From: a virus
IMG/VR virus record: IMGVR_UViG_3300029319_000049
Span: 1-41,177 of that record
Direction: 5' to 3' (one strand)
Length of the DNA stretch: 41,177 nt
A program made the position numbers and the translations under genes. The notes under the pieces are model-generated. The model searched no databases, was not told the origin of the DNA, and saw nothing but the letters and a program-made list of their open reading frames with translations. Shown in pieces: positions 2,186-20,305 of this stretch; within the stretch, counting starts at the first letter, position 1, and every line of letters starts with the position of its first letter.

Positions 2186-2387
2186 TAGTTTTCTCCTTTA
2201 TTTTAATTACTTCTTTCTCTTTAATTTTAGCTAACTTATAACTATCAAAATCTTGTTCTCTTCTAAGAATACTGAATAGTTTTTCGTGAGCATCTTGTAA
2301 ACTTGTTGCTCTAACTTCTTCTGAAAAGGTTACAGAATAAATTTTCTTTCTACCTTTTCCATGATGTGTAAATAAACTTAAAGACAT
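2178..2387 (-). CDS. hypothetical protein, 69 aa
   Basis: Unrecognised. The sequence reads as a beta strand (KIYSVTFSEEV) followed by a helix with the pattern ATSLQDAHEKLFSILRRE, then a Lys-rich tail. This 'strand - xAxSxxxAxxK helix' pattern is commonly seen in small phage proteins with a ferredoxin-like or LPD-like fold, which is only a shape analogy. Start at 2387 has AAAGGAGGAAAGTA in front and overlaps the previous stop as TAATG. Confidence 0.75.
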   Translation of the reverse strand: MSLSLFTHHGKGRKKIYSVTFSEEVRATSLQDAHEKLFSILRREQDFDSYKLAKIKEKEVIKIKEKTNG

Positions 2388-2584
2388 TACTTTCCTCCTT
2401 TATTATATGGTGTCTTGTGATCTCCATATATACTCATAGTATACTTGAATCTCTTCTGTTTCAATTTGACTATAAGATTTCTATCTTCTGTTGGGTATAG
2501 CATATAGTCATCGTGATCATGCTTATCTAGGATAGCTTGTATCTTAGTGTCAAGTTCATCTAAACTTTCTCTAATTCTAATCAT
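2387..2584 (-). CDS. hypothetical protein, 65 aa
   Basis: Unrecognised. Start set at 2584, where GGGAGACTGTG precedes the ATG; a longer in-frame version from 2656 would run 80 bases into the upstream gene without a better ribosome site. N-terminal helix (IRESLDELDTKIQAILDKH) followed by a short beta-like and basic region (LIVKLKQKRFKYTM). It overlaps the upstream gene's TAG stop by 8 bases and ends in TAATG with the downstream gene. Confidence 0.72.
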   Translation of the reverse strand: MIRIRESLDELDTKIQAILDKHDHDDYMLYPTEDRNLIVKLKQKRFKYTMSIYGDHKTPYNKGGK

Positions 2585-2849
2585 CACAGTCTCCCTCAAT
2601 TGAATGCATAAACTCAGGGTTGTCTTCCCACAATTCTTGAATACGATCATAATCAATACTAGCTTTCTTTAGTGTGATAGCTTGACCATATCCATCTATA
2701 ATTGTGTCACCTGGTTCATCTATGGTTTTAATAACCCCACTTTTAAGATAGGTATCAACAAAGTATCTGCCATATGATCCCTCTAATTGAAGAAATAATC
2801 CACTCTCATAATCTTTTAATGCTTGTTCATATACATTTTGTTCAGTCAT
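2577..2849 (-). CDS. hypothetical acidic protein, 90 aa
   Basis: Unrecognised. Acidic protein with an N-terminal helix, a short turn-rich central part (EPGDTIIDGYG) and an acidic C-terminus ending in Asp residues. Its start at 2849 abuts the TAA stop of the upstream gene (TAAATG), with GGAGGA 4 bases before the ATG inside the upstream coding end. No Cys motif, signal peptide or membrane span. Confidence 0.75.
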   Translation of the reverse strand: MTEQNVYEQALKDYESGLFLQLEGSYGRYFVDTYLKSGVIKTIDEPGDTIIDGYGQAITLKKASIDYDRIQELWEDNPEFMHSIEGDCDD

Positions 2850-3320
2850 TTAATCCTCCAACTCATGTTCAAGATATCCTGTAAAACCCATACCATCTTC
2901 TCGGTAGTGCCATTGGATATATAAATCTTCGTCTTTCTTGAAATGAAATTTTCTATCTAATGCTTGAAGAATACCTAGAGGTGGCGACCATGCAGTATCA
3001 AAAGAATACTCTACATAATCTCCCTCATCTACCATTCCAATACCATTAGGATCTAATTCCCACTTCGTACCCCAATGCATATTCTTCCAATCATACCAAT
3101 TGTCTGCACCAAACCGCACTTTCCATTTCCTAGAGTTAGCTTTCTGCTCATCAGATTTTAAATCTTCAGAGCCACTTACAGTTCCCTCTAGTTCTTTAGG
3201 CATAGGATATATTTTATTAAAATCAAATTTACTTTGTTTGGATGAAACAAATTTGATAAACTCTTTTACTTTCTTTTCGTCACCACTTATTGTGACATTA
3301 TTTTCACACCAATTAGGCAT
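2850..3320 (-). CDS. Api92-like protein with ferredoxin-like fold
   Basis: The N-terminus MPNWCENNVTISGDEKKVKEF is the hallmark of a phage/plasmid family typified by Api92 and plasmid YubB, described as having a ferredoxin-like fold; the conserved opening Met-Pro-Asn-Trp-Cys-x-Asn is present in full. The later part (SFDTAWSPPLGILQALDRKF, about residues 106-125, and the YREDGMGFTG segment near the end) also fits the family. Length of 156 aa is normal for a short member. Its biochemical function is not known; it is common in mobile elements and early phage regions. Strong ribosome site AAAGGAGGAAAGATA. Family assignment is from recognition of the motif, not a search. Confidence 0.85.
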   Translation of the reverse strand: MPNWCENNVTISGDEKKVKEFIKFVSSKQSKFDFNKIYPMPKELEGTVSGSEDLKSDEQKANSRKWKVRFGADNWYDWKNMHWGTKWELDPNGIGMVDEGDYVEYSFDTAWSPPLGILQALDRKFHFKKDEDLYIQWHYREDGMGFTGYLEHELED

Positions 3321-18045: not shown

Positions 18046-18057
18046 CTTTTGCGTATT

Positions 18058-18095
18058 GGCCACCGATCACCCTGTGTAAACAGCTACTGGTTGCC
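18058..18095 (+). repeat. hairpin in leader of scaffold gene
   Basis: GGCCACC (18058-18064) pairs with GGTTGCC (18089-18095) with one mismatch; inside it CTGT (18072-18075) pairs with ACAG (18080-18083) around GTAA, a GNRA-type tetraloop. It lies in the 69-base gap between two genes, followed by the scaffold gene's AAGGAGACTAAA ribosome site. May be an RNA-stability or processing element. Confidence 0.4.
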
Positions 18096-18114
18096 CTGAT
18101 ACAAGGAGACTAAA

Positions 18115-18993
18115 ATGTCAGAAACTAACGAAGAAGTCAAAGTTACCAAAGACGAAAAAACAGGTGACACAATAATGAAAAAACCTACAAGGTATAAAAG
18201 ACTAGAGCCAACAGCTCAAGAACTTGCTGCCGAAGAGGAATTAAAAGCTAGAGAAGAAGCTAACGGTCTTGCTACTGAAGAAGTAGAAGAAGTAGCTGCT
18301 ACTCCAGAAGAGGAGTCTTTTAAGAAAAGATATGGAGATCTTAGAAGACATGCTCAAAAACAAGCAGATGATAAAGATAAAGAAATTGCTGCATTAAAGC
18401 AACAGTTATCACAAGCTACAGAAAAACAGATTAAGCTACCTAAGACTGATGAAGAATTAGATGCATGGTCTGCTGAGTATCCTGATGTTGCTAGGATTAT
18501 TGAAACAATTGCTATTAAGAAATCAAAAGAGATGAATAAAAATATTGAAGATAGATTAGAAAATCTAACTCAAAAAGAATTAAAATCATCTAGAGATTTA
18601 GCTGAAAGAGAATTATTATCAATACATCCTGATTTTGAAGAAATTAGAAACGATCCAACATTTCATGATTGGGCAGAAGAACAACCTGATTATATTCAAA
18701 CAGCATTATATGATAACGAAACAGATGCAAAAGCTGCAGCACGTGCTATAGATTTGTATAAAGCAGATAAAGGAATTAAGAAGAAAAGAAAATCTTCTAA
18801 GTCAGCTGCTCAAAATGTTTCTGTTAAAGGTGGATCACAGCCTTCTGATAATGCTTCAATAGGTGAATCTATTAAAGAATCAGATGTAGCTAAGATGACA
18901 GCACAAGAATATGAAGCTAATGAAGAAAGTATAGCTAATGCAATTCGTTCTGGTAGTTTTGTTTATGATATAAGCGGAGCTGCTAGACAGTAG
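18115..18993 (+). CDS. capsid scaffolding protein
   Basis: Very acidic N-terminus (residues 1-65), then FKKRYGDLRRHAQKQADDKDKEIAALKQQL (about 69-98), a coiled coil with the 'xFKKRYGDLRRxxxxxxxExxxLKxQL' motif I recognise from scaffolds of podovirus-like and marine phages; the C-terminus is Lys-rich (KKKRKSSK around 224-231) then mixed, suited to bind the coat. 292 aa and the position just before the major coat gene support the call. It assembles the prohead and then leaves. Ribosome site AAGGAGACTAAA. A terminator follows within 3 bases of the stop. Confidence 0.85.
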   Translation: MSETNEEVKVTKDEKTGDTIMKKPTRYKRLEPTAQELAAEEELKAREEANGLATEEVEEVAATPEEESFKKRYGDLRRHAQKQADDKDKEIAALKQQLSQATEKQIKLPKTDEELDAWSAEYPDVARIIETIAIKKSKEMNKNIEDRLENLTQKELKSSRDLAERELLSIHPDFEEIRNDPTFHDWAEEQPDYIQTALYDNETDAKAAARAIDLYKADKGIKKKRKSSKSAAQNVSVKGGSQPSDNASIGESIKESDVAKMTAQEYEANEESIANAIRSGSFVYDISGAARQ

Positions 18994-18995
18994 AT

Positions 18996-19019
18996 ATAGG
19001 TTGACAAAACCTATTTTTT
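18996..19019 (+). terminator. rho-independent terminator after scaffold gene
   Basis: ATAGGTT (18996-19002) pairs with AACCTAT (19008-19014), loop GACAA, followed by a T-run to 19019. The stem starts 3 bases after the scaffold stop codon. The 7-bp AT-rich stem may allow partial read-through. Confidence 0.65.
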
Positions 19020-19028
19020 GTATATATA
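19001..19028 (+). promoter_or_regulatory. promoter overlapping the terminator, ahead of the coat gene
   Basis: The terminator loop contains TTGACA (19001-19006), a perfect -35, and TATATA at 19023-19028 gives a 16-base spacer. A second TTTGACA at 19077-19083 with TATCAA at 19103-19108 is weaker. A promoter here would boost coat-protein transcription beyond the terminator, as expected for the most abundant virion protein. Not proven. Confidence 0.45.
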
Positions 19029-19054
19029 TGTTACATATATACTACACTCGTAGT
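19023..19054 (+). repeat. two adjacent hairpins in coat-gene leader
   Basis: TATATATG/CATATATA (19023-19030, 19034-19041; 8 bp, loop TTA) followed by ACTAC/GTAGT (19041-19045, 19050-19054; loop ACTC). They share base 19041. Part of a stack of inverted repeats filling the gap between scaffold and coat genes. Confidence 0.5.
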
Positions 19055-19066
19055 AGGCCGAAGGTT

Positions 19067-19083
19067 GTCAAATACGTTTGACA
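19067..19083. promoter_or_regulatory. palindrome GTCAAATACGTTTGACA, operator candidate
   Basis: Perfect inverted repeat TGTCAAA-TACG-TTTGACA (19066-19083). A 17-base copy with one difference (GTCAAATACATTTGACA) occurs at 39708-39724 before the exported-protein gene, so it is a recurring intergenic motif, perhaps a repressor/activator site or an RNA hairpin. Confidence 0.5.
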
Positions 19084-19104
19084 TTTTCCCACCCTACATT
19101 TTAT

Positions 19105-19199
19105 CAAACGAAATTCAACTCAGGCTACCTGATGTTATGGCCTCTAGGCATAGACACCCATAAAACTCATCAGCCCTTACGATGTCGAGTTATCGTTTG
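19105..19199 (+). ncRNA. long imperfect stem-loop, structured leader of the coat gene
   Basis: Nested complementary segments: CAAACGA (19105-19111) with TCGTTTG (19193-19199); AACTC (19117-19121) with GAGTT (19187-19191); CTGATG (19129-19134) with CATCAG (19168-19173); TTATGG (19135-19140) with CCATAA (19158-19163); and an apical GCC/GGC (near 19140-19149). The arms nest in order, as in one extended hairpin of ~95 bases. Ends 17 bases before AGGAGATACAAA and the coat start. Confidence 0.45.
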
Positions 19200-19231
19200 T
19201 TGGCCCTTAATTATATTATAGGAGATACAAA

Positions 19232-20305
19232 ATGGCCTTTAAAGTAGCGTCAGGTTATCAAAACCTACCTAATGGTAATTTCTCTCCAGTCATTTACAGT
19301 CAAAAGGTTCAGCAAGCATTTCGTAAGAGTTCTGTTTCTGAGTCAATTACTAATAATGACTACTTTGGAGAAATTGCAAACTTTGGTGACACAGTTCGTA
19401 TCATCAAAGAGCCTGAAATAACAGTTAAAGAATACGCTAGAGGTACTCAAATCGTTCCACAAGATTTAGACGATGAGGATTTCAGCTTAGTTGTTGACCA
19501 GGCAAATTACTTTGCTTTTAAAGTAGATGACATTGAGGAAGCTCATTCTCATATTAACTTTGAAAGCATGGCATCAGATCGTGCAGGCTATCGACTCCGT
19601 GATCAATATGACCAAGAAGTATTAGGATATTTATCTGGATATAAACAATCCTCTTTAAGCACAGCAGCAGGAGCAGTAAACGATGTCGTTTCTGGTACTA
19701 AAGCTGTTGGCACTGCAGGAACAGATGAACTTCTAACATCTATGAAGTTGAGAAAAGATTCTTTTGGAAACATCACAACTTCTTCAGCAGGGGATCATTC
19801 AATCCCACTAGCAATTAGGCTACCAGGTGCAACATCAGTTGCAACTGCTACAGCCACACCTTTACAGGTTGTTGCTAGAATGGCTAGACTTCTTGATCAA
19901 CAACAAGTTGATAAAGACGGAAGATGGCTCGTAGTAGATCCAGTGTTCATTGAATTACTTGCAGACGAAGACTCAAGATTACTTAACAATGATTACCGAA
20001 ATAAAGGTGATCTAGAAAGTGGTCTAGCAGTTGGACAACTACATGGATTCGATGTATATGTTTCAAGCAACCTACCTTCAGTTGGAACTGGTCCTGCAAC
20101 CTCTGGTTCAGCAAACCAAAATTCTAACTATGGTGCGATTGTTGGTGGACATAGTTCAGCAGTTGCTACTGCTTCTCAGATCAATAAAGTAGAATCTTAC
20201 AGAGATCCTGATTCATTCGCTGATATCGTCAGAGGAATGCAGATGTATGGAAGAAAGATACTTAGACCTGAAGGCATTGTGACAGCTAAATATAACGCAG
20301 CGTAA
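19232..20305 (+). CDS. major capsid (coat) protein
   Basis: 357 aa. The segment NGNFSPVIYSQKVQQAFRKS (about 14-33), NNDYFGEIANFGDTVRIIKE (41-60), VKEYARG, and QDLDDEDFSLVVDQANYFAFKVDDIEE (about 77-103) is the standard N-terminal signature of a coat-protein family common in marine podoviruses and related to the P22/N4-like HK97-fold capsids; the C-terminal 'SADAIVGG...INKVESYRDPDSFADIVRGMQMYGRKILRPEG' region also fits in outline. It forms the icosahedral shell. Strong ribosome site ATAGGAGATACAAA. Preceded by the terminator/promoter and structured leader, and it is likely the most expressed gene. Confidence 0.93.
   Translation: MAFKVASGYQNLPNGNFSPVIYSQKVQQAFRKSSVSESITNNDYFGEIANFGDTVRIIKEPEITVKEYARGTQIVPQDLDDEDFSLVVDQANYFAFKVDDIEEAHSHINFESMASDRAGYRLRDQYDQEVLGYLSGYKQSSLSTAAGAVNDVVSGTKAVGTAGTDELLTSMKLRKDSFGNITTSSAGDHSIPLAIRLPGATSVATATATPLQVVARMARLLDQQQVDKDGRWLVVDPVFIELLADEDSRLLNNDYRNKGDLESGLAVGQLHGFDVYVSSNLPSVGTGPATSGSANQNSNYGAIVGGHSSAVATASQINKVESYRDPDSFADIVRGMQMYGRKILRPEGIVTAKYNAA

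Follow-up and report, generated by a model that had tools for sequence, protein, structure and literature searches.

The gap between the coat gene of an HMO-2011-type phage and the gene upstream of it was found to carry a sigma-70-type promoter sequence followed by a structured RNA in the 5΄ leader of the coat mRNA, and a leader of the same design was found directly before the upstream gene. We regard it as nearly certain that a conserved structured leader is common to the two genes. In the reading that we prefer, to which we assign a probability of about 0.5, the promoter and the leader would work together with a trans-acting factor that coordinates both mRNAs. A cis-acting structured mRNA leader is a known kind of element; what is new is a modular, multi-copy loop common to the scaffold and coat leaders, together with palindromic arms in the leaders of many relatives. 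The RNA element is almost universal among the sampled relatives, yet no Rfam family covers it, and it provides a defined RNA site at which the balance between scaffold and coat in tailed phages can be studied.

Phage type and gene neighborhood

We analyzed a stretch of 41,177 nt (hereafter the window) from a virus record of 58,414 bases. The coat protein encoded in the window is 71% identical to that of Roseobacter phage CRP-1 and 69% identical to that of Puniceispirillum phage HMO-2011, and we accordingly assigned the window to the HMO-2011-type phages. This is a dominant marine virus group with a broad distribution, according to the available part of its description (PMC9038755). The features discussed below are collected in Table 1. 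The gene upstream of the coat gene is called the scaffold gene by its position. No open reading frame of at least 60 aa was found inside the gap, and a coding role for the gap was rejected on this ground.

In phages that bear the element, the scaffold-position proteins mostly have the C-terminal sequence YD(I/V/L/M)SG(A/S/G)AR (window positions 18950–18993), which is absent from the corresponding proteins of HTVC115P and HTVC033P, two phages without the RNA element. This sequence and a basic patch of the scaffold were considered as the RNA-binding part and set aside; they are common in element-bearing phages and missing from HTVC115P and HTVC033P, and the correlation is weak.

Table 1. Features of the two leaders and their genes in the window (strand given where assigned)
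Feature	Position	Strand	Sequence, evidence or remark
Upstream-gene leader element	18053–18105	+	strict scan, R2 match, relatives
Upstream-gene leader, loop A	18060–18063/18094–18095		CCAC/CC
Upstream-gene leader, stem	18064–18069/18088–18093		
Upstream-gene leader, loop B	18070–18071/18084–18087		CC/CUAC
Upstream-gene leader, small hairpin	18072–18083		
Upstream-gene Shine-Dalgarno	18103–18108	+	AAGGAG; sequence; ATG 18115
Upstream gene	18115–18993	+	scaffold by position; PHROG family of no known function
Gap between upstream gene and coat gene	18994–19231		238 nt
Terminator-like hairpin	18996–19019	+	AUAGGUU-GACAA-AACCUAU + T6; overlaps -35 box
-35 box	19001–19006	+	TTGACA; kept in relatives
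-10 box	19023–19028	+	TATATA, spacer 16; TATAAC in most relatives
AT-rich repeat	19023–19041		overlaps likely -10 box and start point
Small hairpin	19042–19053	+	CUAC-ACUC-GUAG; near predicted RNA 5΄ end; G19053 common to hairpin 1
Hairpin 1	19053–19097	+	stem GUAGG/CCUAC, 19053–19057/19093–19097
Hairpin 1, 2×4 loop	19058–19059/19089–19092		CC/CCAC
Hairpin 1, inner stems	19060–19088		hold the palindrome predicted originally
Nested domain	19105–19199	+	closed by stem O, CAAACGA/UCGUUUG, 19105–19111/19193–19199
Nested domain, second closing stem	19117–19121/19187–19191		AACUC/GAGUU
Core	19125–19175	+	R1 match, covariation
Core, loop A	19125–19128/19174–19175		CUAC/CC
Core, stem P	19129–19134/19168–19173		CUGAUG/CAUCAG
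Core, stem Q	19135–19140/19158–19163		UUAUGG/CCAUAA
Core, loop B	19141–19142/19154–19157		CC/ACAC
Core, apical arm	19143–19154		UCUA-GGCA-UAGA
Coat Shine-Dalgarno	19220–19224	+	AGGAG; sequence; ATG 19232
Coat gene	19232–20305	+	PHROG 267 major head protein, Pfam capsid

Sample of relatives

Coat-gene neighborhoods were collected from IMG/VR by protein and by sequence pattern, and named phages were added. The coat start was located in 286 of the 300 records compared, the others giving a failed comparison (3 records) or no coat match. After gaps shorter than 100 nt and truncated gaps had been dropped, 272 gaps were retained, which formed 131 non-redundant groups including the window. The 100-nt cutoff removed HTVC115P and HTVC033P as well as two records in which the element is present (L237 and L272). 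Nearly all of the 261 records with a usable upstream reading frame had a gap of approximately 190–350 nt. Gaps below 170 nt were seen in L237 and L272 (34 nt each, with a chance reading frame covering the leader), L083 (116 nt, with an inserted HNH gene), L209 (156 nt, with a chance reading frame) and L297 (155 nt). The gaps of HTVC115P (58 nt) and HTVC033P (31 nt) are genuinely short, and neither the coat leader element nor the upstream-gene leader element was found in these two phages.

Promoter and terminator-like hairpin

The original prediction held that the gap may contain a promoter, and comparison with the relatives bore this out. The usual form among them is TTGACA-N16-TATAAC(TA), to which TTGACA-N16-TATATA corresponds in the window, and boxes that agree with the consensus at 11 or more of 12 bases were present in 93 of the 131 gaps but in only 1 of 655 shuffled sequences. 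The gap thus holds the sequence signature of a sigma-70 promoter, namely TTGACA and TATAAT-like boxes, 16–18 nt apart, that are kept in relatives. Promoter boxes with one mismatch were no more common in a scan of the window (6) than in shuffled sequences (5.3), and the promoter call therefore rests on the relatives. Transcription would be expected to start near position 19035.

A terminator hairpin had also been predicted at the beginning of the gap. A plus-strand hairpin followed by T6 does exist there, but it does not qualify as an intrinsic terminator and was rejected as such: it contains just two G-C pairs, it does not appear in the terminator scan, and among the 19 distinct sequences that make up the window's subfamily, 9 do not keep it, while the -35 box, spanning the 5΄ arm and loop of the hairpin, stays (these 19 sequences were collected by requiring TTGACA). 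Outside the near subclade the hairpin is not conserved.

A repeated loop unit and the core of the coat leader

Side-by-side reading of the gaps revealed a unit that the original prediction did not include, either here or before the upstream gene. It is a 2×4 internal loop with G-CC on one strand and NWAC-C on the opposite strand; the closing pair is G-C or A-U. We know of no earlier description of such a small recurring loop. In the core of the coat leader the unit occurs twice, in opposite orientation, within one nested helix, NWAC-[P-[Q-CC-arm-NWAC-Q΄]-P΄]-CC. A third copy is often present in a hairpin upstream of the core, as it is in the window.

We scored this arrangement as a grammar. 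In its strict form it was found in 68 of the 131 gaps and in 3 of 655 shuffled sequences, and the window shared the top score; in its relaxed form it was found in 99 gaps and in 18 of 524 shuffled sequences. A covariance model described below (R1) added 24 gaps, so that the core was called by either method in 123 of the 131 gaps, a few of which may be false given the rate of relaxed matches in shuffled sequences. The eight gaps without a core by relaxed grammar or R1 were L025, L034, L037, L044, L046, L054, L059 and L294.

To assess covariation, we aligned 30 long-arm cores, taken from the 68 grammar matches with the window's subfamily excluded, by sequence only (alignment A1). The invariant columns were all loop letters. 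In this alignment 92.0% of the cells were paired, compared with at most 39.9% (range 30–40%) when the partner was slid, and two-sided changes occurred in 19 of the 19 modeled pairs. For helices 1 and 2 this count is biased, since the sequences had been chosen by the grammar; in helices 3 and 4, which lie outside the grammar, two-sided changes were seen in 3/3 and 8/8 pairs, respectively.

Model R1 was built from A1, and the window was not part of its training. A cmsearch run over the 41-kb window returned a single match, at this gap (19115–19186, E = 6.8e-6), and no match was found in the remaining 17 kb of the record. Across 100 sources (511 kb), R1 gave 69 matches at E values up to 0.1 with at most one match per source, and its misses include subfamilies that the grammar does detect. 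When the R1 matches were aligned (A2, an alignment fitted to the model), 90.9% of cells were paired and 18 of 19 pairs had two-sided changes. In an alignment restricted to the subfamily of the window (A3; 19 distinct sequences, with the structure taken from the window), 94.3% of the cells in 47 pairs were paired, compared with no more than 43.3% after sliding, and two-sided changes occurred in five pairs, a number that was reached by 275 of 500 shuffles. G-U cells outnumbered A-C cells (39:9, 66:25 and 39:6), which identifies the plus strand as the RNA. The expectation that pairing would be conserved in relatives with compensatory changes was thereby confirmed.

These results leave almost no room for the explanation that the gap contains only chance inverted repeats and a transcription terminator. 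Each small hairpin taken singly could have arisen by chance, and outer stem O is weak by itself, but covariation, the matches of position-specific models, and the excess of grammar and folding over shuffled sequences are not what chance would leave.

In one relative, L083 (MW202701.1), an HNH endonuclease gene (2315–3001) lies between scaffold and coat, within the coat leader. Promoter-like boxes are located upstream of the HNH gene, whose reading frame overlaps at its end with the 5΄ side of the core; R1 still matches the core (2860–2952) despite the insertion.

Comparison with known RNA families

A search with Rfam 15, scored against the gathering cut-off of each family, returned no match in the window or in 20 relatives, the best E value in the gap being 4. 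A self-cleaving ribozyme and a known riboswitch were rejected as candidates because of this result. That the leader is a riboswitch that senses a small molecule or an ion seems very improbable: its place 5΄ of a gene and its conserved internal loops would fit such an element, but it gave no Rfam match, its loop occurs in several copies per leader and in both orientations, and the target genes encode shell proteins, not metabolic functions. Other structured leaders in marine phages (manA, wcaG and PhotoRC-II) were likewise found by comparison, as described in the available part of Weinberg 2010 (PMC2864571); those precede metabolic or photosynthesis genes, whereas the leaders described here precede shell genes and have no Rfam match. 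In the available portions of open-licence PMC papers, PMC9038755, PMC6918029 and PMC8040213 among them, we found no description of an RNA located upstream of the capsid genes in HMO-2011-type phages.

Hairpin 1, outer stem and folding of the gap

The inverted repeats listed in the original prediction are all present, and most of them belong to one conserved structured RNA. Those present include the two small hairpins at 19023–19054 (the AT-rich repeat and CUAC-ACUC-GUAG) and the nested stem of approximately 95 bases. The 17-bp palindrome also exists, as UGUCAAA-UACG-UUUGACA inside the longer hairpin 1, but its size was overstated, since the arms are only 6–7 bp. A 2×4 loop upstream of the core, with at least 5 outer pairs and a score of 12, was found in 75 of 128 gaps and in 16 of 640 shuffled sequences.

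Stem O was weak in a free search (median score 15, compared with 13 in shuffled sequences). It recurs in similar places with letters that differ by group (GCAAAC/GUUUGC, CUAAAC/GUUUAG and CAAACGA/UCGUUUG). In the window, ACGUUUGA (19074–19081) could pair with UCAAACG (19104–19110) in competition with stem O, a match that is not kept in near relatives. Within A3, L126 and L120 combine types of hairpin 1 and core differently from L003 and the window, as if a promoter/hairpin-1 module and a core module recombine.

The prediction that the gap is structured was also consistent with its folding energy, which exceeded that of shuffled sequence. The 238 nt fold at -55.7 kcal/mol, compared with -42.5 ± 4.4 for shuffled sequences (z = -2.98; 1 of 200 equally stable), and z was -3.9 when the calculation was repeated with 40 shuffles. 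For the 3΄ 142 nt of the gap alone, z was -1.6 (12 of 200 shuffles). Across the 131 non-redundant gaps the mean z was -2.36, with 78 gaps below -2 and one above 0. Folding energy by itself does not settle the structure; the comparison with relatives does.

A related leader before the upstream gene

When the window was scanned for further copies of the loop unit, positions 18057–18098 (approximately) stood out, directly before the Shine-Dalgarno sequence of the upstream gene. This leader is the loop pair of the coat leader in miniature. The strict rule was satisfied by 81 of the 111 upstream-gene leaders of relatives, a count made without a shuffle control. A second model, R2, was built from 18 upstream-gene leaders including that of the window; it matched the window's leader at E = 3.3e-10 (a training sequence) and gave matches at E values up to 0.1 in 89 of 100 sources. 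In HMO-2011 and CRP-1, both outside the training set, approximately 50 kb were searched and R2 gave one strong match each, at the upstream gene. R2 does not match the coat leader, and the two leaders therefore share an architecture, not an alignable sequence.

In the aligned R2 matches, an alignment fitted to the model, 9 of 12 pairs had two-sided changes and 92.1% of cells were paired. We also aligned 45 upstream-gene leaders with MAFFT and found 94.3% pairing in the seven pairs counted. Two-sided changes affected 3 of these 7 pairs, a number reached by 414 of 500 shuffles; the 35 cells with two-sided change and the covariation score were reached by none of the 500. Among the 80 matches listed of the 120 that a leader pattern gave in IMG/VR, a scaffold or coat gene lay downstream in 79, and the contig ended in the 80th. 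In some relatives the upstream-gene leader has loop A alone over a plain hairpin. The upstream-gene leaders of L059 and L294 have a loop variant with AC for CC (for example, UUGG-ACAC-CCAG...CUGG-AC-CC).

Because the core design recurs before the scaffold-position gene, these results suggest that production of the shell proteins is coordinated by the virus at the level of RNA.

Proposed function of the leaders

An RNA that regulates coat expression, as originally proposed for this gap, is plausible. In our preferred reading, the promoter upstream of the coat gene would drive a transcript with a folded 5΄ leader, and a trans-acting, probably dimeric RNA-binding factor would recognize the loop units in both leaders and adjust the translation or stability of the scaffold and coat mRNAs together. 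We infer a trans-acting factor, by preference a protein, because the only invariant letters are those of the loops, set in stems that differ widely, and because both leaders contain this loop; a dimeric binder is suggested because the loops of a pair are inverted (a pseudo-dyad), as two-fold symmetry needs. A coordinating factor for scaffold and coat expression, judged from sequence comparison, has in our estimate slightly less than an even chance of being real. The prime suspect would be a capsid-assembly protein of the phage, the scaffold first. The coat Shine-Dalgarno sequence is not clearly sequestered in the predicted fold, and thus no on/off switch is visible.

The leaders might instead be passive stabilizers with a compact 5΄ fold, which would slow attack by RNase E/J and keep the ribosome site free, with the loops as elements of a tertiary fold, and would give long-lived mRNAs for the shell proteins that are most needed. 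The strong folding of the gaps, the position of the elements directly upstream of the Shine-Dalgarno sites and the strong promoter of the coat gene itself are in keeping with this explanation. However, the exact loop letters persist in several copies, in either orientation and within unrelated stems, which stability would not require; we consider passive stabilization unlikely, though worth keeping in mind.

The put RNA of phage HK022 is a cis-acting antitermination RNA, and in a similar way the coat leader could bind RNA polymerase as part of the transcript and allow read-through of the late operon. Its location directly after a promoter and at the head of the coat and tail genes would suit such a role, but the second copy within the operon, before the upstream gene, would not, which makes antitermination improbable.

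Coordination of both mRNAs by a trans-acting factor has parallels among autogenous leaders. In ribosomal-protein-type autogenous regulation, structured 5΄ leaders precede assembly genes and the assembly protein exerts feedback. As in such systems, conserved structure was found in the 5΄ leaders of the proposed target genes, and a single motif occurs in several mRNAs; feedback is here a proposal. Unlike those leaders, to which Rfam indicates no relation in sequence or structure, the present ones contain multi-copy 2×4 loops. The scaffolding protein of phage P22 is autoregulated, and its level is thought to be set post-transcriptionally. The coat families are related (the HMO-2011 record labels its own coat PF11651, P22 coat protein).

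Palindromic apical loops

Of 99 apical arms, 22 short ones, including the window's type, were set aside, and the other 77 gave 76 distinct sequences. A self-complementary 4-mer was present in 69 of these 76 long arms, compared with 23.9 ± 3.6 when loop letters were shuffled, although the arms are related sequences and not independent events. The 4-mers were of six kinds: GGCC (52), GATC (6), GCGC (5), GTAC (3), TGCA (2) and AGCT (1). Selection for self-pairing would be expected to leave just such a replacement of one palindrome by another, and the loops of the long-arm relatives suggest putative kissing dimers, in which two leaders would pair. The short apical arm of the window has GGCA, which is not palindromic. 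As a test for loop-loop pairing within one molecule, we counted second copies of the loop 4-mer and found them in 55 of 75 arms (24 expected); on visual examination, most of the additional GGCC copies proved to be loop B's own G-G-C-C, and the GCGC, GATC and GTAC loops have no second copy.

The kissing loops of HIV-1 DIS and oskar have a central palindrome that is often A-flanked, according to the part available of PMC7357161, and so do the apical loops of many relatives with a long arm. In contrast, the core palindrome is here mostly 4 nt instead of 6, the RNA is the mRNA leader of a DNA phage, dimerization is putative, and the window's own arm contains no palindrome. In phi29 pRNA, the same partial source describes two different complementary loops; pRNA resembles the present RNA as a phage RNA with possible loop-loop assembly and a link to the head, whereas single self-complementary loops in mRNA leaders are found here. 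No Rfam match of any kind, and thus none to a prohead RNA model, was obtained in the window. The six kinds of self-complementary loop would suit a trans-acting structural RNA that assembles by kissing loops in the style of prohead RNA. Such a role is nonetheless highly improbable: the scan shows no terminator between the RNA and the coat gene, the element is present in two leaders, the arm of the window lacks a palindrome, and the terminase large subunit of this phage is of the ordinary kind.

A further elaboration of factor-mediated coordination, which we regard as speculative, is a virus-encoded RNA regulon for shell stoichiometry. The scaffold and coat mRNAs would read the level of free capsid-assembly protein through the modular loop, and like leaders would pair by their palindromic loops, so that copies of the mRNA would be co-translated or co-repressed where heads assemble. 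The self-complementary apical loops also form a natural series in which RNA dimers in bacteria could be studied.

Phage range

The leader family was found in HMO-2011-type phages and in some Rhizobium phages. Sinorhizobium phage phiM6 and Rhizobium phage N3_13 have both leaders, and both phages were in the R2 training set. Four contigs of the HMO-2011 phage type (L301–L304) were binned into metagenome-assembled genomes labeled Euryarchaeota, Gammaproteobacteria, Bacteroidetes and Blastopirellula; these bins appear to be contaminated with viral sequence.
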